A stretch of DNA of 64,000 bases, taken from assembly GCF_025869345.1 (NCBI RefSeq), contig NZ_JAOZVW010000138.1:62001-126000 (forward strand), given 5' to 3'. The position numbers were made by a program, and so were the translations under genes. Positions 2 through 8,453 of this stretch are shown here, one piece after another (the first letter of the stretch is position 1; each line of letters opens with the position of its first letter). Under the pieces are notes generated by a model, which made no database searches, was not told the DNA's origin, and saw only the letters and a program-made list of their open reading frames with translations. Source of the DNA: Sphingopyxis sp. (GTDB lineage Bacteria > Pseudomonadota > Alphaproteobacteria > Sphingomonadales > Sphingomonadaceae).

Positions 2-88
2 GGGTTCAATGAACATTCGCATTTCAGTAAATGCTTCAAGGAGATGTTCGGCCTGTCGCCGAAGGACTACCGCCTCGGCCTTCATTAA
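2..88 (+). CDS. AraC-family transcriptional regulator, C-terminal end only
   Basis: The first 28 codons of the window read in frame to a TAA stop and give the last helix of an AraC/XylS DNA-binding domain, with the family hallmark GFNEHSHFSKCFKEMFG followed by SPKDYR. Only this tail is present; the sensor domain and start lie outside the window. It converges on tldD, and the two stop codons overlap within four bases. AraC activators commonly sit beside TonB-receptor uptake loci, so it may regulate the import operon next to it, but that is inference. Confidence 0.85.
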   Translation, partial: GFNEHSHFSKCFKEMFGLSPKDYRLGLH

Positions 89-1539
89 GCCGTCCCGCCC
101 ACCGTCATCCCGTCGATCCGGACCGTAGGCTGCCCGACACCGACCGGCACATTCTGTCCCGCCTTGCCGCACATGCCGCTTCCGCCATCGATCGCCAGGT
201 CGTTGCCGATCATCGCGATATGCTTCAGCGTTTCGGGACCGCTGCCGACCAGCGTCGCGCCCTTCACCGGTGCGGTCAGGCGGCCATTCTCGATGAGGTA
301 GGCGTCGGTCGCCTGAAACACGAAGCGTCCGTTGGTGATGTCGACCTGGCCGCCCCCGACCCCGGCGACATAAAGGCCCGAGGCGACCGATCCGATGATC
401 TCCGCAGGATCGTGCGAACCGCCGAGCATGAAGGTGTTGGTCATCCGCGGGATCGGCATCGCCGCATAGGATTCGCGGCGTCCGTTGCCGGTGGACCGCG
501 TTCCTAGCAGATGCGCATTGTGCAGGTCGTGGAGGAATCCGGTTAATATGCCATCCTCGATCAGCGGCGTGCGCTCGGTCGGCTGGCCTTCGTCATCGAT
601 CGTCAGCGAGCCGTGGCTTCCCGCGATCATGCCGTCATCCACCACAGTAACGCCTTTCGCCGCGACGCGTTGACCGACGAGGCCGGCAAAGGCCGAGCTT
701 CCCTTGCGCAGAAAATCGCCTTCGAGGCCGTGGCCGACCGCCTCATGAAGCAGGATTCCGGTCTCGCGCGGGCCGAGCACGACGGTCATCGGTCCCGAAG
801 GGGCGGCGCGCGCATCGAGCTGTCGCAAGGCCCGGTCGACCGCCTTGCGGACTTGCGCTTGCACGCGTTCCCGGGTCAATTCCTCGAACGCCATCCGCCC
901 GCCGTCGCCGACATGGGCTCGCGCCTTGCGGCCGTTCTGCTCGGCGAAGACGGTGATGTCGAGGCGGACGAGCGGGCGGGCGTCGGCATTGCGCGCGCCG
1001 TCGCTGCGCGCGATGAAGACGTGGTTCTGCTCGATCTGCAGCATGACCGTGACCTGGCTGACGCGGGGATCGGCCGCGCGCGCCAGCGCATCGACCCGTT
1101 TCAGCAGATTGACGCGTTCGTCGGCGGTGCTTTGCCCCAACGGATCGGCCATTGGATAGAGCGCGATCTGTCCATCGGACGCCTCGCTTCTCCCGGTGTT
1201 TCCCAGCGCGATGCGTGCGCTCCGGCCAGCGTGCCCGACCGCCCGCGTAGTGTCGGCGGCGCTCGCGAGGGCGGCGAGCGAAATATCGTCGGAATAGGAA
1301 AGTGCCGCATGTTCGCCGGCGATCGCGCGCAGACCGACGCCCTGACGGAAGCTGTGGCTGCCCGTGTTGATCTGACCTTCGTTCAGGCGCCACACTTCAC
1401 GGCGCCTGGCCTGGAAATAAAGGTCGGCATAGTCGATCGACCGCGTCATCACGCCGCCCAGGATCGTGTCGAGATGGGACCGGTCGAGATTGTTGGCGGT
1501 CAGAAGGCCGGTTTCGACCTGGCTGTTACTGGGTGTCAT
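85..1539 (-). CDS. tldD: TldD, zinc metalloprotease subunit of TldD/TldE
   Basis: About 484 residues, the usual length for TldD. The zinc motif HEAVGH followed by GLEGDFLRKGSS lies near residue 265, and a late cysteine in SGMCGKAGQ near residue 457 matches the third zinc ligand of E. coli TldD. TldD forms a heterodimer with TldE/PmbA, takes unfolded peptides into a cavity and degrades them; in E. coli it processes microcin B17 and CcdA. It follows pmbA after 16 bases in the same operon. ATG at 1539 is chosen because GGAG lies six bases upstream; an in-frame ATG at 1545 directly abuts GGAG. Here it ends an operon that starts with an outer-membrane receptor and an ABC importer, so it probably digests an imported peptide (inference). 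Confidence 0.93.
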   Translation of the reverse strand: MTPSNSQVETGLLTANNLDRSHLDTILGGVMTRSIDYADLYFQARRREVWRLNEGQINTGSHSFRQGVGLRAIAGEHAALSYSDDISLAALASAADTTRAVGHAGRSARIALGNTGRSEASDGQIALYPMADPLGQSTADERVNLLKRVDALARAADPRVSQVTVMLQIEQNHVFIARSDGARNADARPLVRLDITVFAEQNGRKARAHVGDGGRMAFEELTRERVQAQVRKAVDRALRQLDARAAPSGPMTVVLGPRETGILLHEAVGHGLEGDFLRKGSSAFAGLVGQRVAAKGVTVVDDGMIAGSHGSLTIDDEGQPTERTPLIEDGILTGFLHDLHNAHLLGTRSTGNGRRESYAAMPIPRMTNTFMLGGSHDPAEIIGSVASGLYVAGVGGGQVDITNGRFVFQATDAYLIENGRLTAPVKGATLVGSGPETLKHIAMIGNDLAIDGGSGMCGKAGQNVPVGVGQPTVRIDGMTVGGTA

Positions 1540-1555
1540 CGTCATCTCCGTCCGC

Positions 1556-2920
1556 TCAGCGCCCGGCGACGCGCATCGCGCCGACCAGGATGGAACCGCT
1601 CGTTATCGATTGTTCGACATGCTCGTCGGCGCCGATCGCCACGATCTCGCGCATAAGATCGGGCAGCGACCCGGCGATCGTGACGCCTTCGACGGCGTGA
1701 GCGATTTCGCCGTTCACCACGCGCTGACCCGTCACCGCGAAGGAGCAATCGCCCGTCGTCCGCTCGGTGCCGCCACCGGCGATGTCGGTGACGAGCAAGC
1801 CGTTGCCGAGCTTGCGGAGCATGGCTTCGCGGGTGTCCGAAGGCCGCGTGTTATGGCCGACCAATCGCAGATTGGACATTCCGCCGGCATGTCCAGTCAG
1901 TGGCAGCCCCAGCCGCTGTGCCGAATAGCGTGAGAGGGCATAGCTTTGCAGCACGCCGCGGTGTACGAGGTCGCGGTCGACCGTCGCGACGCCCTCGGCA
2001 TCGAACGCCCGGCTTGCGAGGCCGCGGGGGAGGAGCGGGCGCTCCTCGATCGAAACATGATCGGCGAAGATGCGCTCGCCAAGCTTGCCCGTGTAGAATC
2101 CATCGGACAGATATTGCGCCTCGCCGCTGATCGCGCCCATGACCGGATCGACGAGCGCCATCGCCAATATCCCCTCGAACAGGATCGGCATGTCGCCGGT
2201 CGGGATATCGCGCGCGTCGAGTTTGGCGAGCGCCCGCGCCCGCGCCGCCCGGCCGATGGTGTCCGGAGCGGGGAGGTCGTCGATGGCGCGCGCGGTGCGC
2301 GACCAGTTGGCGACCTGCATCCTGCCGTTCCGCTCTGCGATCACGCCGCAGTCGTAATAGTGGCTCGAACTCGGATAGCTCGCCATGAAGCCGCGCGACG
2401 TCGCAAAGCATAGCTGACGATGGAAGGCCGACGCGCGCGCGCCCTCGGCCTTGATCGCGGTCCCGGCCGGCAGGTCCTCGCCGTCGAGCGCCGCCGTCTC
2501 GATCCGGCGTGCGATTTCGAGTGCATCCTCGGCGGACGGCAGCCAGATATGGAACAGGTCAAGGTCGGGGATGTCGCGCGCCAGGAATGCGGCGTCCACC
2601 AGGCCGGCGCTCTCGTCGGGCGCCACATGCCGGGCGATCGCGCAGGCGGCTTCGATGGCGCTTTCGATCGCATCGGGCGTGAGTTCGCTGGTCATGCTCT
2701 CGGCGCGGCGGCCGTCGACGATCACCGAAATCCTGAGCTGCTTCGAGCGCCGGTGCTGCAATGTTTCAATCTCGCCGAGCCGGACGCCGACCGAAAGCTG
2801 GGTGCTCTCGATGACTTCGGCGGTCGCGTCGGCCGCGCCCGATATCTTGGCGCGATCGAGGGCGAGCGCTGCCGCATCCTCGAGTTGCGCGGGGGCGAGC
2901 AGGAAGGGGGTGTCGCTCAT
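1556..2920 (-). CDS. pmbA: TldE/PmbA, non-catalytic partner of TldD
   Basis: 454 residues with the TldD/PmbA fold throughout: an N-terminal part with GVRLGEIETLQHR, a middle ISVIVDGRRAES strand, and the C-terminal domain containing GLLVTDIAGGGT. It lacks the HExxxH zinc site, as expected of TldE, which pairs with TldD to make the protease chamber. The start ATG overlaps the stop of the upstream 293-residue gene by four bases (ATGA), so the two are translationally coupled. Having both subunits adjacent is uncommon in gamma-proteobacteria, where tldD and pmbA are separate, but is common when the pair serves one dedicated pathway. Confidence 0.92.
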   Translation of the reverse strand: MSDTPFLLAPAQLEDAAALALDRAKISGAADATAEVIESTQLSVGVRLGEIETLQHRRSKQLRISVIVDGRRAESMTSELTPDAIESAIEAACAIARHVAPDESAGLVDAAFLARDIPDLDLFHIWLPSAEDALEIARRIETAALDGEDLPAGTAIKAEGARASAFHRQLCFATSRGFMASYPSSSHYYDCGVIAERNGRMQVANWSRTARAIDDLPAPDTIGRAARARALAKLDARDIPTGDMPILFEGILAMALVDPVMGAISGEAQYLSDGFYTGKLGERIFADHVSIEERPLLPRGLASRAFDAEGVATVDRDLVHRGVLQSYALSRYSAQRLGLPLTGHAGGMSNLRLVGHNTRPSDTREAMLRKLGNGLLVTDIAGGGTERTTGDCSFAVTGQRVVNGEIAHAVEGVTIAGSLPDLMREIVAIGADEHVEQSITSGSILVGAMRVAGR

Positions 2921-3798
2921 CGAACCGCACTCGATCCCGCGAGGTTCGCTGCGGCAATTTCCAGCATCAGCGCATCGTGCCGCGCCGCTTGATGGACGGG
3001 CAGGGCGTCGGAGACGGCCTGGTTGCGCATCTTCGCGCGCTCTTCGAGCGGATGGCTTTGCTGTGCGAACAGGCGGCGTCGCGCCTCGTCGTAACGCGCC
3101 CGCTCATCGCCTTTCACATCGGTCAGCGTCGGTGCCAGTTCCTCGGCGCGCCGATTGAGGTCGCGGACATGGTCGCGCAACTGCCGGCTATCTTCTTGCG
3201 TCCAGCCGACCTGCGCGTCGGCGCGGACCATGATCGCCTCGAACCAGCTTTGCGCCACATCGCTGACGACCCCTGGCGAGGTGTCGACGTCCCACGCGGC
3301 CGCCGAGATCGTCTCGAAAGCGGCGGCGGCGATGCGGTCGGCGGGGCGTGCCTTGCGCAGCATCGCCCGCATCTGCGGCCAGACCGCAAGGTCGACGTGT
3401 TCACCCGCGGCCAGTCGCCGGTGCAGCGCGATCAGCGCCTCGCAGGCGGTGATCGCCGCCGGCTCGTTCACCCAGCCTTGCAACGGGTCCGCATTACCGT
3501 CCCACGCCCGCACGACCCATCCGTGGACCGCGCGCCGCGCCGGCGCGCCCGGGGCGAGCGCCGCCAGCGGCGTTAGCAGATGAGCCTCCGCCGCTTCGAA
3601 CGTCGCGCCCTGGCTGGGCAGGATCGCCACGACCAGGCGGACGAAAGCCTCGTCGAGGCCATGGTCGCTGGCGAAGATGTCCAGCCCCTCCCCGAAACGG
3701 AAGAGCGGATGGTCGCGATCCTTTTGCGTGATCGCCCGCGACAGTGCCGCGATCAGCTTTGATTTGCGGACGGCATCGCCGCCGAAGGCGCCGCTCAT
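2917..3798 (-). CDS. Unrecognised 293-residue protein of the TldDE import operon
   Basis: I do not recognise this family. It has no signal peptide and no membrane segment, so it is probably cytoplasmic and largely helical. The N-terminal half is rich in Ala/Leu helices (near residues 55-75 and 115-160); the C-terminal third is strongly charged, with a heptad-like stretch from about residue 205 (RQLRDHVRDLNRRAEEL). It is coupled by ATGA overlaps on both sides, to thioredoxin upstream and pmbA downstream. That placement suggests a dedicated partner of the proteases, for example a substrate adaptor or chaperone, but nothing in the sequence proves it. Confidence 0.75.
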   Translation of the reverse strand: MSGAFGGDAVRKSKLIAALSRAITQKDRDHPLFRFGEGLDIFASDHGLDEAFVRLVVAILPSQGATFEAAEAHLLTPLAALAPGAPARRAVHGWVVRAWDGNADPLQGWVNEPAAITACEALIALHRRLAAGEHVDLAVWPQMRAMLRKARPADRIAAAAFETISAAAWDVDTSPGVVSDVAQSWFEAIMVRADAQVGWTQEDSRQLRDHVRDLNRRAEELAPTLTDVKGDERARYDEARRRLFAQQSHPLEERAKMRNQAVSDALPVHQAARHDALMLEIAAANLAGSSAVR

Positions 3799-4127
3799 GC
3801 ATCACCCAGCATATCTTCGATCGCGTCGGCGATCCGGCTGCGGGTCGGCGCACCGTTCACGGTCGCACGCTGTTCGCCGTCCTTGAACAAGAGCAGCGTG
3901 GGGATGGCGCGAATGCCGAAGCGGTCGCGGGTCTCCGGGCTGTTGTCGACATTGAGCTTTACGATCCGGACCTTCCCGTCATATTCGCGGGAAATGTCCT
4001 CAAGTGTCGGCAACAAGGCGCGGCATGGCCCGCACCAGTCGGCGTAGAAATCGAGAAGAACCGGAAGGTCGGAACCGAGAACTTCCTGCTCGAAATTGCT
4101 GTCATCGGCTTCGCTGAAATTCGCCAT
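3795..4127 (-). CDS. Thioredoxin
   Basis: 110 residues, a single thioredoxin domain with the redox centre WCGPC at residues 31-35 and the conserved cis-proline in IRAIPTLLLF. No signal peptide is visible, so it acts in the cytoplasm. It would reduce disulfides using thioredoxin reductase encoded elsewhere. It opens a block coupled by ATGA overlaps with the unknown protein and pmbA. The 163 bases upstream (4128-4290) separate it from the ABC transporter. They contain an AT-rich patch (tataaaaaatgg on the minus strand) that could hold an internal promoter, but no convincing terminator, so transcription from the receptor gene may continue through. In this context it could unfold a disulfide-bonded imported peptide for TldD/TldE. 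Confidence 0.93.
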   Translation of the reverse strand: MANFSEADDSNFEQEVLGSDLPVLLDFYADWCGPCRALLPTLEDISREYDGKVRIVKLNVDNSPETRDRFGIRAIPTLLLFKDGEQRATVNGAPTRSRIADAIEDMLGDA

Positions 4128-4290
4128 ATTCTGGTTCCTTACGTCAACTGCTGTCGGTTCGTTGTTATTTGTGACGGTATTAGAGAGGGATTGCGGCGCT
4201 GTCTGGCAGCCCCGGAGCCCATTTTTTATACTTGAGTGTAATTGCGGTTCGAGCGACCCCGCCTGTTACGAGGCGGCCGTCCGGCCGGCG

Positions 4291-6066
4291 TCAGTCGTTG
4301 GCGAGCAGGGGAGACCTGAATGCCTGACCGTCGGCGAGGCGGACGACCTGATCGTGAAACTCGGCGATGGCGGGACGGTGCGCGACTGAAATCCAGGCGG
4401 CGCCGGGCATCGCTGCCGCAAGTGCACGGTAGAGTTCGGTTTCGAGATGAGCGTCGAGCGCGCTCGTCGCCTCGTCGAGAAAGAGAAAATCGGGCCGCAT
4501 GAGGAGGACGCGCGCCGCGGCGATCCGCTGCTGTTCGCCCGGCGAGAGCACCTTGCCCCAGGCCATGTGCGTGTCCAGCATGTTGAGCAGGCGATCGAGC
4601 GAGAGGCGCTTCAGCACCGCCCGGTAGCTGCCGTCGTCATAGGCGGCGGCATCGGCGGGATAGCTCAACAGGGCGGCGAGGGTTCCTTCGGGCATATAGC
4701 TGCGCTGAGGGAGGAAGGCCATGCGGGCGCTGCGCGGAAGCGCAATCGTTCCGCTGCCGTGCGGCCACAGCCCGGCCATCGCGCGCAGCATCGTGCTTTT
4801 TCCGGCCCCGGATGCGCCCTGGACGAGAATGCGGTCGCCGCGCCGCACCGACAGGCTGCCGATATCGGTCATCAGATGACCATCGGGATAATGGATGCGA
4901 AGGTCGGCGATCACCAGTTCCTGGCCGCCATCGACGAGATGGATCTGCGAGGCTCGAGGTTCCGACAGCTCGGTTTCGAGAAGCTGGATGCGATTGCCGG
5001 CCGAGCGGACGCGCGCGATATCCTGATAGCCCGAAAAAAGAGAGGTGAGACCGGTCTGGAGACCGAGTTGGGCCGCGACAAAAAACTGCATCTCGCCGAC
5101 GGTCATCTTCCCGGCCGCGACCAGCGGCACCACGAAGAGGATCGGGAAGACGCTGGACCAGAAGGCGGGAATGATCGTCACCAGCCCGACGAGCAGGCGG
5201 GCGATCGTATAGTGCCGCCAGTTCTCGCGGATCAGCCCGTACGAGCCCGTCATCCGGCCGAGTTCGCGGCGGCCGCCATTCTCGAACGCGATCGCTTCGC
5301 TGTTTTCACGGACGCGGGCGAGATCGTGACGGAAGCCGGCCTCGACACGCTGACGGACCAGCTCGGCGCGGGTCAGCCGGTTGCCCGTCTTGTGGATCGT
5401 GACGTTGAAGAAGATCGCAAACAGGATGGTGACGAAGAAAAGATAGCTCGGGATCGTCACGTCGAGCCCGATGCCCGTCAGCGGCAGCGAGGGCGACATT
5501 TCCCAGACCTTGGCGGTGAAGAGAATGATATAGGTGACCATATAGGTCAGCGACGGCAGGATATTGTCGACGATTTCCTGCGGGAAATTATAGCCGTCTT
5601 CCTGGATGCGCTGTTCGGGGTGATCGACCCGGCCCTCGGCTTCGAGATGATAGAAGCTGTTGTTCGACAGCCACTTTCCGAGAAACAGGAGAGTGAAGAA
5701 ATTTCGCCAGCGGATCCGCAAGATCAGGCCGCTGAGCGCGTTGATCATATTCTGGACGATGTTGAGGACATAAAGGATCAGAAGCCAGGTCACGATCCCC
5801 CAGATCGCCGCGGCCTGCCGAGCGATCAGCGCGTCGGTCAGGTCCGCGCTTTTCGCGGCGATCTCGACCGAGATATAGCCGCCCACGATCCCGACGCCGA
5901 CCTTGAGCGCGACGAAGATCGTCGCCATGACGGGGTCGGCGCGCAGATATCGCCCGAGCAGCCCTCCGATATATTTCAGGTCGTTCCAGAAGCGGTCCGA
6001 ACGAAATTCGGGTGGCCGGTCGGTTTTGACGACCTGGGCGTCCTCGGGCGATACGGCATCCGTCAT
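4291..6066 (-). CDS. SbmA/YddA-type ABC transporter, fused permease and ATPase
   Basis: 591 residues. The N-terminal half carries about six membrane segments of the SbmA/BacA-like ABC_membrane_2 type (from about residue 45 to 330, including GGYISVEIAAKSADLTDALI). The C-terminal half is an ATPase with Walker A GASGAGKSTM, signature LSPGEQQRIAAARVLL and Walker B FLFLDEATSALD. This is the architecture of E. coli YddA and Pectobacterium FusD; SbmA/BacA relatives import peptides into the cytoplasm. It starts seven bases after the TonB receptor stop, so receptor and inner-membrane transporter are one transcript. Family relatives also include long-chain fatty acid and vitamin B12 transporters, so the peptide substrate is inferred from the neighbouring proteases. 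Confidence 0.88.
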   Translation of the reverse strand: MTDAVSPEDAQVVKTDRPPEFRSDRFWNDLKYIGGLLGRYLRADPVMATIFVALKVGVGIVGGYISVEIAAKSADLTDALIARQAAAIWGIVTWLLILYVLNIVQNMINALSGLILRIRWRNFFTLLFLGKWLSNNSFYHLEAEGRVDHPEQRIQEDGYNFPQEIVDNILPSLTYMVTYIILFTAKVWEMSPSLPLTGIGLDVTIPSYLFFVTILFAIFFNVTIHKTGNRLTRAELVRQRVEAGFRHDLARVRENSEAIAFENGGRRELGRMTGSYGLIRENWRHYTIARLLVGLVTIIPAFWSSVFPILFVVPLVAAGKMTVGEMQFFVAAQLGLQTGLTSLFSGYQDIARVRSAGNRIQLLETELSEPRASQIHLVDGGQELVIADLRIHYPDGHLMTDIGSLSVRRGDRILVQGASGAGKSTMLRAMAGLWPHGSGTIALPRSARMAFLPQRSYMPEGTLAALLSYPADAAAYDDGSYRAVLKRLSLDRLLNMLDTHMAWGKVLSPGEQQRIAAARVLLMRPDFLFLDEATSALDAHLETELYRALAAAMPGAAWISVAHRPAIAEFHDQVVRLADGQAFRSPLLAND

Positions 6067-6073
6067 AATCTGC

Positions 6074-8404
6074 TCAGAAGGTGTGAGAGAGAACGATCTT
6101 GATGGTGCGCGGCGCCGCTCTCACGATGGTCCAGGCCGCGAGCGGTTCCGAAAAATTGAGTCGATCGAAGAGATTGTCGACCGTCAGGTTGATCCGTGTC
6201 TTGTCGATCTCATAGCCGATCATGGCGCTGACGCTGCGATAATCTTTCGGGAATGTTTCCACGCCGTCTAGACTCCCCGACAGAATATTGGTCTTGCTGC
6301 GATACTCCCCGCCAAGACCCAATTCGATCTGCTGGCCCGGCGCGATCCGGAATGCTTTGGTTACCCACAGATTGCCGACGAAATCGGTGCTGCCGGTGAT
6401 CGGGTCGCCCATTTCATCGCGCGCGTGGGTATATGTCAGCCCGCCGATCAGGCTGAGGGTCGGCGTGATCTGCCCCGAAATCGACAGCTCGACGCCGCGG
6501 GCCCGCTCGCCCGGCGCCGGGATGACGAAGCCCGGATGGTCGGGGTCGGCGAGCGCGGTGTTCGAGGTTTTGTATTTGAACAGAGAGATGTTGACCGAAA
6601 GCCGGTCGTTGAAAAAGGCCGTCTTCACGCCGACTTCATATTGGGTGCGCATTTGCGACGGGATCAGATCGCCATTGAACTGGATCAGCGAAGGATCGGT
6701 CGGCGTGAAGGCTTGCTGATAGCTCGCATAGGTCGAAAGCCAGGGCGCGGCATCGAACACGATACCCCCGCTCGGGACCCATTTCGACTGCTTGACCGGT
6801 CGCTTGACGCCGGTGCGGACTGAAGTCGTGAAGGCATCGGACCAGGTGTTGCGAAGCGCTCCGACGAGATGGAGCGGCCCCCATTCCATCTGATCCTGGA
6901 TCACGAGACCATATTGATCGGTGCCGCGGTCGGTCCGGTTCATCAGCGAGTTGGTCGGATCATAGTCATCGAAGCTCGGCAATGGCACGAGCGGCGCGAT
7001 GGGCCCGCCGACGAAATAGAATGGCATGAAAGGCGAGTTCACGGAGAAGGTCTTGCCGCGCAGCCAGAGATAATCGAGCGCGACGATCGCCTGATGTTCG
7101 ATCGGCCCCGTGTTGAACTTCGCATAGAGGTCGGCGAAGGTGCTGAACTGCTCGTCCGTCTGCACGATCGCGCTGCGGTTGATGCGGCCCGGCCCGCCGA
7201 AGCCCGGCGTCAGGCTGGCGATCTGCGCCGATCCCCTGTCCCACATATATTGTCCGCGGTCGCGGAACCGAAGGACGAAGCCATCGCTCGAGATGATGTC
7301 CTTCTCGATGCTGTAGGTGAGCTTCCTGACCGTCGCCTGGACGAACGTGTCGGGGCTGACGCCGAGCGCCGGCAGGACGCCCAGGTTGGCGGGGTTCCCC
7401 TGCGGATCGAGATCCCGATAATAATAGCGGTCGCGAAAGGCGGTGCGGACATTGCTGTAGGAAGCGGTGGCGTCGACCTTCCACCCATGGTCCCGATACC
7501 CCAGAATTCCGGTGATCTGGTAGACGTGCGGCGAATTGCCGCCGCCGGGGCGATGGTCGGCATAGTCGGCCAGTCCCACGGCGCGCCAGTAGATGCGATC
7601 GGACGCCGAAAGCTCGCCGCCGGTATCGAAGGAGCCGCGGATCTGGTCGCCGCTTCCGACCCCGAGGTCGATCCGCGTCGGACTGTTGCCGAGTGCGCGT
7701 TTGGGAACATAGTTGATGAGGCCGCCGCCGACTTCGGTTCCGGTCAGAATCGAGGCGGGCCCCTTCAGCACCTCGATCGCTTCGACGTCGATTGTCGATG
7801 TGCCGCCGCCGAAGGGACTGTTGCGAAGACCGTTGGTAAAGCTGACGCCCTGCGTATTCCCGCCGCGCATACGTGCATTGACGCCGAGGAAGCCCGAGTT
7901 GCCGTCGACGCTGAGCCCGGGAATGTTGCGCAGCGCGTCCTCCAGGCTGGTCGAGTTACGGCTGAGCAACACGTCTTCGGTAACCGAGTCGATCGTCGCC
8001 GGCGTCTCGCGTACTGACGTATCCGACCGTGTCAGCAGCTCGGAATCGGTGCGCTTATAGGCGGTCATCTGCGCGATGACGATAATTTCGGACTGATTGC
8101 CCTCGGCCTTCGCGATGCGGATTTCGCCAGCGCCGTTGTCGACGACGCGAAGGTCGGTGCCGATCAAAACCCTATCGAGCGCTTCGCGCAGCGTCAGATA
8201 GCCATTGACGCCATCGACGGGCCTGCGTTCGTTCGGGATATCGGAGAATGTTGCGCCACCGTGCGCCTGCGCGACAATTTGGCGTACGACCTGGCCGAGC
8301 GACCCGGCTGGCACGTCAAAATTATAACGAGCGGTCGACTGGGCGTAGGCCGATGGGGCGGCTAACGCCGAAACGATGGGCAGAAGAAATAGTCCGCGAT
8401 GCAT
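6074..8404 (-). CDS. TonB-dependent outer-membrane receptor with N-terminal STN domain
   Basis: 776 residues: a signal peptide (cleavage near AYAQS), an STN domain (about residues 27-98), a plug starting near residue 125 and a 22-strand barrel ending in the outer-membrane signature IKIVLSHTF. STN-domain receptors of the FecA/FhuA group usually import siderophores and can signal to an anti-sigma factor; no sigma/anti-sigma pair is visible here, while an AraC regulator is. GGGG lies about eight bases before the ATG. It is the first gene of the import operon. The cargo is unknown; a metal-binding or disulfide-bonded peptide would fit the downstream ABC transporter, thioredoxin and TldDE proteases. 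Confidence 0.92.
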   Translation of the reverse strand: MHRGLFLLPIVSALAAPSAYAQSTARYNFDVPAGSLGQVVRQIVAQAHGGATFSDIPNERRPVDGVNGYLTLREALDRVLIGTDLRVVDNGAGEIRIAKAEGNQSEIIVIAQMTAYKRTDSELLTRSDTSVRETPATIDSVTEDVLLSRNSTSLEDALRNIPGLSVDGNSGFLGVNARMRGGNTQGVSFTNGLRNSPFGGGTSTIDVEAIEVLKGPASILTGTEVGGGLINYVPKRALGNSPTRIDLGVGSGDQIRGSFDTGGELSASDRIYWRAVGLADYADHRPGGGNSPHVYQITGILGYRDHGWKVDATASYSNVRTAFRDRYYYRDLDPQGNPANLGVLPALGVSPDTFVQATVRKLTYSIEKDIISSDGFVLRFRDRGQYMWDRGSAQIASLTPGFGGPGRINRSAIVQTDEQFSTFADLYAKFNTGPIEHQAIVALDYLWLRGKTFSVNSPFMPFYFVGGPIAPLVPLPSFDDYDPTNSLMNRTDRGTDQYGLVIQDQMEWGPLHLVGALRNTWSDAFTTSVRTGVKRPVKQSKWVPSGGIVFDAAPWLSTYASYQQAFTPTDPSLIQFNGDLIPSQMRTQYEVGVKTAFFNDRLSVNISLFKYKTSNTALADPDHPGFVIPAPGERARGVELSISGQITPTLSLIGGLTYTHARDEMGDPITGSTDFVGNLWVTKAFRIAPGQQIELGLGGEYRSKTNILSGSLDGVETFPKDYRSVSAMIGYEIDKTRINLTVDNLFDRLNFSEPLAAWTIVRAAPRTIKIVLSHTF

Positions 8405-8435: not shown

Positions 8436-8453
8436 GCTATCTATATAGATAGC
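8436..8453. promoter_or_regulatory. Perfect 18-bp palindrome upstream of the import operon
   Basis: gctatctatatagatagc is a perfect inverted repeat 31 bases upstream of the TonB receptor start codon, in an AT-rich patch of an otherwise GC-rich sequence. It is placed where an operator over the core promoter would lie. It does not resemble a Fur box. AraC proteins usually bind direct repeats, so a dimeric repressor not encoded in the window is possible. Confidence 0.5.

Follow-up and report, generated by a model that had tools for sequence, protein, structure and literature searches.

A sphingomonad gene set joining a TonB-dependent receptor, a YddA-type transporter, a thioredoxin and TldD/TldE or M16 proteases: a candidate peptide-scavenging pathway

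In this study we describe a gene set, here called the cassette, in a stretch of Sphingopyxis sp. DNA of 64,000 nt (NZ_JAOZVW010000138.1; G000:C138:62001-126000; hereafter the window), which encodes a TonB-dependent receptor, a YddA-type ATP-binding cassette (ABC) transporter, a thioredoxin, a protein that we call X, and both subunits of a TldD/TldE protease (TldDE). An original prediction, made from the letters of the window, had placed six one-strand genes between positions 85 and 8404 and read them as an import-and-digest locus resembling Fus and Ydd. All six minus-strand open reading frames (ORFs) were confirmed at these positions, and so were their families, assigned by Pfam and NCBIfam profiles with curated cut-offs. 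The gene set proves longer than had been noted, and besides an AraC-family gene it runs past position 85 to an M3 peptidase gene and a Cds1-like gene on the same strand just left of the window, in a fetched stretch (L005) whose coordinates equal window coordinates plus 10000. The features are as follows.

6074..8404, minus strand: TonB-dependent receptor, FhuA/FoxA-like, 776 aa; first gene of the set
4291..6066, minus strand: fused permease-ATPase ABC transporter of the YddA / SbmA-BacA type, 591 aa
3795..4127, minus strand: thioredoxin with WCGPC, 110 aa (PF00085, TIGR01068)
2917..3798, minus strand: protein X, new all-helical family, 293 aa
1556..2920, minus strand: PmbA (TldE)-like subunit, 454 aa
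85..1545, minus strand: TldD-like catalytic subunit, 486 aa
1..88, plus strand: 3' end of an AraC-family regulator gene (whole ORF L005:8988-10088)
8436..8453, no strand: 18-bp perfect palindrome, possible operator
L005:6955-8976, minus strand: oligopeptidase-A-like M3 gene, left of the window (700.6 bits, cut-off 927)
L005:5894-6958, minus strand: Cds1-like L-cysteine-desulfhydrase gene, left of the window (554.8 bits, cut-off 600, NF052478)

The spacing of these genes is uneven. The predicted overlaps of 4 bases (PmbA/X and X/thioredoxin) and short gaps (here 7 and 10 bases) are present, but the ABC and thioredoxin genes are separated by 163 bases, so that the close packing does not hold throughout. 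The M3 and Cds1-like genes also overlap each other by 4 bases. What had been seen as an AraC tail is the 3' end of a complete plus-strand gene (HTH_18 and HTH_AraC both above cut-off), which converges on tldD and overlaps its stop by 4 bases. The palindrome begins 32 bases upstream of the receptor start codon and is the only site in the genome at two or fewer mismatches; it is a possible operator for the AraC regulator encoded nearby.

The receptor contains the Plug and beta-barrel domains of Pfam, finds FhuA and then FoxA/CntO as its top PDB matches, and scores 196.3 bits against the TonB siderophore receptor profile TIGR01783, which misses the cut-off of 223.5. Its predicted STN domain is seen only below threshold (13.6 bits in Pfam, cut-off 28.4), and the N-terminal region falls inside the stretch aligned to the FoxA/CntO chains. 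With E. coli YddB as the query, no locus receptor was matched at E <= 1e-3. In the transporter, ABC_membrane_2, ABC_tran and SbmA_BacA are all above their Pfam cut-offs, E. coli YddA aligns at 27% over 561 residues (5e-59), which supports the predicted type, and the best PDB matches are ABCD-type transporters and 6tqe; it is likely an inner-membrane importer. The thioredoxin scores 113.5 bits against TIGR01068 (cut-off 96.8) and lies above the cut-off of PF00085, with a WCGPC motif and no signal peptide seen by eye. CxxC is kept in 33/33 thioredoxin ORFs of at least 60 bits from this and related loci (30 distinct genes).

Protein X matches no Pfam or NCBIfam profile at E <= 0.001, and its best match among PDB sequences has an E of only 0.84. 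Homologues were found in sister loci, and an hhalign comparison of two disjoint subgroups of them gives Prob 97.9 and E 3.5e-13, although two members, in L130 and L185, score weakly (21-22 and 36 bits). The AlphaFold2 model is all-helical (pLDDT 92.6, pTM 0.87) and has ambiguous structural matches, among them DUF416 proteins and the B chain of the toxin entry 7jtu. X represents a new family of all-helical proteins whose genes accompany that of the thioredoxin. As a single query, X returned 42 contig stretches that fit a pattern, none of which was confirmed, and in the 196 genomes of the order it found its own match and one weak match (G091, E 8e-4), which was dropped as a relative because its neighbourhood (L045) held no cassette gene. 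A hit of the X profile in G144 (E 8e-4) was likewise dropped, with no cassette genes nearby, and in 367 genomes of the class, with at most the best 6 candidates per genome scored, the profile found only its own match. One genome, G406 (L064/L067), carries three thioredoxin and three X genes together with PmbA-TldD, AraC-like and Cds1-like genes, so X and thioredoxin are multiplied there.

Related sets occur at 30 distinct places, of which 22 carry TldDE (L145 included), six carry an M16 protease and two show neither; two of the 30 are on plasmids. The co-occurrence of these families in sphingomonads, which the original prediction had proposed to look for, is thus borne out. The count is free of two duplicates (L143 is the same as G186, and L127 as G375) and comes mainly from three routes. 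By route (a), the window ABC transporter was searched in the 196 genomes of the order, which gave five matches beyond its own at E 1.7e-78 to 1.7e-55, the next being 1.7e-27; G186, G178 and G148 hold the set, and G039 and G132 have a looser arrangement with ExbB/ExbD. By route (b), an X profile whose members included G000, G178 and G148 was run over 397 genomes of the family and gave nine matches including the window's own, of which eight were kept, with G375, G224, G218, G436 and G406 as new carriers. Thioredoxin, X, ABC transporter and receptor are found together in 8/8 of these; PmbA-TldD is present in 5/8, M16 in 2/8 (as two ORFs in G224), and neither is in view in G436, a genome 71% complete. 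An M3 gene lies close by in 6/8 and a Cds1-like gene in 6/8; in G218 the two share the contig of the set at a distance of about 8 kb (stretch L132, which in route (c) below is one of the 60 M3 loci without the cassette in view), and in G148 only a Cds1 remnant adjoins the set. By route (c), the best 80 of 173 relatives of the M3 peptidase were scanned, and receptor, ABC transporter, thioredoxin and X lie near M3 in 20/80, with PmbA-TldD in 15 of these loci, M16 in 3 and neither in the fetched stretch in 2. Because M3 was the bait, its association in route (c) is not independent, and route (b) is the fairer sample.

One further set (receptor-ABC-PmbA-TldD-thioredoxin-X, L185) was found through the third TldD of G496. 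The locus-type TldD-PmbA pair of L145 is on the contig of its receptor, roughly 6 kb away and in opposite orientation, and in L118 the receptor is cut at the locus edge. The plasmid sets are those of Sphingomonas parapaucimobilis YK209 (NZ_CP155749.1) and of Sphingomonas sp. NY01 p1, typed as mobilizable (NZ_CP101723.1). They came from 149 plasmid records that match the ABC transporter at E <= 1e-60, of which four were opened; of the other two, one from Bradyrhizobium does not hold the set and one has no annotation. Among the TldDE-type carriers are the culturable Novosphingobium capsulatum NBRC 12533 and Sphingomonas kyeonggiensis DSM 101806 (loci L147 and L149). Outside Sphingomonadales, the named members are Niveispirillum irakense (L123), Caulobacter vibrioides OR37 (L130) and a metagenome-assembled genome (MAG) of Caulobacterales (L145); a further alphaproteobacterial MAG, L112, is unplaced. 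The genes are not arranged alike in all loci, and the set occurs in three taxonomic orders. Besides L043, described below, two candidates were left out of the 30. One is L044 in G132, which has receptor, M16, ABC, ExbB and ExbD genes. The other is L048 in G416. Its receptor, the only one in the 397 family genomes to resemble that of the window strongly (36% identity), adjoins an apparently broken YddA-type ABC gene, and an ORF that by eye looks like a transposase lies close by.

The protease subunits of the cassette are distinct from the housekeeping TldD and PmbA. The window TldD scores 527.5 bits against PRK10735 (cut-off 513), and aligned with E. coli TldD (5nj5) it has HEAVGH and CGKAGQ, the latter with the third-ligand cysteine. 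PmbA scores 336.6 bits against PRK11040, under the cut-off of 438, with all three PmbA_TldD Pfam domains above theirs, and it lacks HExxxH. Across the loci, HExxxH is present in 21/21 TldDs and in 0/21 PmbAs, and the Cys/Asp ligand pattern is present in 20/21 TldDs (19 distinct genes), the one in which it was not found being L124. The window genome carries another tldD, on C51, and another pmbA, on C33, neither of them linked to the cassette. A housekeeping TldD/PmbA pair is present in 25/25 genomes, which were chosen for their loci; 17/17 TldDE-type carriers also hold a full housekeeping TldD elsewhere, and the remaining 8 have a single full TldD (five M16-type, G436 with neither protease, and two with M3-Cds1 only). 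The locus TldD is an extra copy, and the 25-genome count is no independent test of its linkage.

A tree of 48 TldDs contains 23 rows with a locus-copy label. Of these, 22 (19 distinct genes) cluster together with support of 100/100, apart from the 25 housekeeping copies. The locus-type TldD is thus a clade separate from the housekeeping TldD, within which the window TldD sits on a long branch and its exact placement is unsure. The exception, L043 in G039, falls on a long branch with the housekeeping copies and was excluded from the TldDE count; it has a divergent housekeeping-type PmbA and TldD, at most some 6 kb away from a YddA-type ABC gene with ExbB/ExbD, and another TldD is present in that genome. 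A profile of six locus TldDs, run over 387 family genomes, scores 801-901 bits in 5 genomes, always in such loci; these five are known carriers and all in the profile, and since at most 4 candidates per genome were scored, divergent copies elsewhere are possible. Other TldDs reach at most 580 bits among the matches listed. Two matches each in G452, G421 and G039 at 529-547 bits are at the housekeeping level; those of G452 have equal scores and lie 6.5 kb apart, and G421 is 79% complete with 5% contamination. The original prediction had named tldD and pmbA occurring routinely without the receptor and transporter as a pattern that would speak against it. Such a pattern holds for the housekeeping pair (25/25) but, among the candidates scored, not for the locus-type TldD (5/387 genomes, all in such loci).

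The sister loci also support the idea that TldD/TldE stands here in place of an M16 protease, because M16 is found in the same setting. TldDE and M16 interchange in like settings. In a tree of 33 ABC rows, the five M16-type transporters with X beside them group together (99/94) and nest within a group of seven that includes those of the TldDE-type loci L124 and L130 (100/100). L124 has a MocR regulator, as M16-type loci do, yet its protease is TldDE, and in the thioredoxin of L124 and the five M16-type loci CxxC is kept and the tryptophan before it is lost. The five M16 proteins have HxxEH and N-termini that by eye resemble signal peptides, and PqqL of E. coli has matches in six M16 proteins, drawn from related and looser loci. 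The cut may therefore fall in the periplasm in the M16 variant and in the cytoplasm in the TldDE variant, which would make the swap in similar operons a natural experiment on the site of cleavage.

Taking these results together, we consider it probable, by a modest margin, that the cassette encodes a dedicated pathway for peptide scavenging, which combines uptake, reduction, digestion and cysteine breakdown. The receptor would bring a small peptide that contains cysteine and is folded by disulfides across the outer membrane, and the YddA-type transporter would move it into the cytoplasm, where the thioredoxin, aided by X as a presumed partner, would reduce and unfold it. The TldD/TldE shell protease would trim the unfolded chain, the M3 oligopeptidase would cut the resulting fragments down, and the Cds1-like enzyme would split freed L-cysteine into sulfide, pyruvate and ammonia. 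In the part of PMC5810440 available, E. coli TldD/E degrades unfolded peptides and entry is proposed for unfolded chains only; a disulfide-folded cargo would therefore need prior reduction. The disulfide suggested by the original prediction fits the conserved CxxC and the adjoining Cds1-like gene, and the reduction step itself is one that we infer. Because a Cds1-like enzyme belongs to the set, cysteine is a plausible target; from its sequence the enzyme probably acts on cysteine, its score being under the cut-off. As the only Cds1 match at E <= 1e-100 in the window genome, it may serve the cell at large too.

The purpose is more likely to be sulfur, nitrogen and carbon than iron, and the surroundings of the M3-Cds1 pair, all of amino-acid breakdown, make food more likely than metal. 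In 18 cassette-free loci the pair occurs with serine dehydratase and 5-oxoprolinase, although these loci hardly differ among themselves, at 93-100% identity to the query proteins; they form a serine dehydratase - M3 - Cds1-like - 5-oxoprolinase row in Sphingomonas faeni-like genomes (L085:8569-16627 and 17 similar stretches) with no import genes in view. A 5-oxoprolinase at 50-53% also adjoins two cassette loci (L133, L185). A sphingomonad-type M3-Cds1 pair (66% M3 identity) was also seen in a record titled Arthrobacter sp. TPD3018 (L108), which may be misnamed.

Several observations weigh against the scavenging pathway. The Cds1-like protein falls under its NCBIfam cut-off (554.8 against 600), and 60/80 M3 loci show the M3-Cds1 pair, or M3 alone, with no cassette in view in flanks of at most 10 kb, so that the pair may be a general neighbour in sphingomonads. 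A Cds1 match at E <= 1e-100 is absent from 3/23 cassette carriers (G501, G504, G506) and lies away from the cassette in G148, G494 and G500, and G406 has no M3 gene in view. Neither TldDE nor M16 was seen in G436 (71% complete) or in L129, where the stretch ends inside the ABC gene and the genome has no locus-type TldD, M16 not having been searched for.

A wider proposal, which we put forward tentatively, is that this is a modular, plasmid-borne pathway by which sphingomonads and some other Alphaproteobacteria feed on disulfide-folded peptides. X and thioredoxin would unfold the imported peptide and pass it to a protease that can be exchanged, TldDE in the cytoplasm or M16 in the periplasm, with cysteine breakdown at the end and a nutritional role for TldDE. 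If so, the widespread but poorly understood TldDE would gain such a role, the combination of TldDE with thioredoxin and a new family would widen the class of protease-coupled TonB import, and there would be a testable route to the substrate in harmless plant- and water-living bacteria.

Among the alternatives, iron or metal piracy as in Fus survives best but is unlikely in our judgement. A ferredoxin-like protein or peptide metallophore would be imported, and its digestion would free a metal or an iron-sulfur (Fe-S) cluster. The receptor does resemble siderophore receptors, the transporter is of the YddA type as in the ydd-pqqL locus of E. coli, genes for an extracytoplasmic function (ECF) sigma factor and FecR adjoin one related locus (G436), and a cysteine-ligated Fe-S protein could likewise lead to cysteine breakdown. 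The iron-dependent expression of PqqL, the ydd-pqqL protease, given in the available part of PMC6793856, counts on the same side. However, no YddB-type receptor was found, and thioredoxin, M3 peptidase and cysteine desulfhydrase would be superfluous for metal release. The iron purpose considered in the original prediction gained no support upstream of the window receptor, where Fur-like matches to two motifs are unremarkable (p 0.43 and 0.47), in a weak test based on a consensus motif, one strand and single-base shuffles. Across 27 loci, the 19-base motif gave p < 0.05, uncorrected, in three (L112, L042, L061) and the 15-base motif in none; L130 had 39 bases to score, and for the M16-type loci the stretch scored was the one preceding the receptor gene instead of the M16 gene.

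It is improbable that the cassette serves defence or competition by taking in and destroying a toxic peptide of neighbours, for example a ribosomally synthesized and post-translationally modified peptide (RiPP). Peptide antibiotics are known to enter cells by SbmA-type transporters and FhuA/FoxA-type receptors, and the two plasmid-borne sets and the fold matches of X to DUF416 proteins and a toxin entry, ambiguous as they are, would also suit such a role, but active import of a toxin would be an odd defence and the oligopeptidase and cysteine-breakdown genes favour use as food. No biosynthesis gene was found among the few neighbours scanned by family, the right flank being read as ORFs only. 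The available part of PMC5810440 also describes the processing of microcin B17 by TldD/E, which removes its leader; this counts both for defence and for the maturation and export of a self-made peptide with TldDE as the leader peptidase. The latter is very improbable, with no peptide-modifying enzyme among the cassette genes, a receptor and YddA-type transporter that argue for import, and M3 and Cds1-like enzymes that fit breakdown. That a receptor-transporter pair and duplicated peptidase genes of no relation to it have come to lie together by chance is hardly credible, despite the housekeeping TldD/PmbA in 25/25 genomes and the variable gene order, because the set recurs in other genomes, at 30 places, with varied gene order, on plasmids and in three taxonomic orders, and because the third TldD of G496, which had come up in a search for TldD, turned out to be part of a further set.

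The scavenging pathway that we favour has relatives among known systems. Import of proteins or large peptides by TonB receptors with a dedicated protease has been described around M16 proteases, in the available part of PMC6793856, which also notes other proteases beside some FusA homologues and whose main text, to that extent, makes no mention of TldD, thioredoxin or Sphingomonas. Fus of Pectobacterium and YddA-YddB-PqqL of E. coli share with the window a TonB receptor, a protease and an ABC gene in one locus, and the likeness claimed by the original prediction holds for the YddA-like transporter but not for the receptor, which is FhuA/FoxA-like and not YddB-like (FusA was not compared). Fus and Ydd have a periplasmic M16 protease; the window set has TldD/TldE, presumably cytoplasmic, and no M16, which is found in 6/30 related loci. 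The window set adds thioredoxin, X, an M3 oligopeptidase and a Cds1-like enzyme. It works like the protease-associated import systems without being a member of Fus/Ydd, because it differs in receptor family and lacks M16, the YddA-type transporter being the part it shares. No description of the combination was found in open-licence PubMed Central (PMC) full text, a scope that leaves preprints and supplements outside.

With E. coli TldD/TldE, as covered in the available part of PMC5810440, the window pair shares the two-subunit metalloprotease with HExxxH and Cys ligand kept, but it is a locus-linked copy beside a housekeeping pair. The Gluconobacter TldD/TldE involved in pyrroloquinoline quinone (PQQ) supply also processes a peptide, as its authors speculate in the part of PMC8602642 available; in contrast, the window pair is tied to import genes, and no PQQ gene is among the scanned proteins, the genome not having been searched for one. 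SbmA/BacA and the ABCD-type peptide/cobalamin transporters resemble the window transporter in its transmembrane domain (SbmA_BacA, ABC_membrane_2), but the latter has a fused ATPase, as YddA does, and is genetically tied to a receptor and proteases. The sphingomonad M3-Cds1 pair that adjoins the window cassette is the same pair that elsewhere occurs without one. As for variants of the cassette, in G436 (L063/L069), with neither TldDE nor M16 in view, the receptor that the ECF sigma and FecR genes adjoin is an STN receptor within the cassette, and in G218 (L062) two different YddA-type ABC genes lie in tandem in one cassette.

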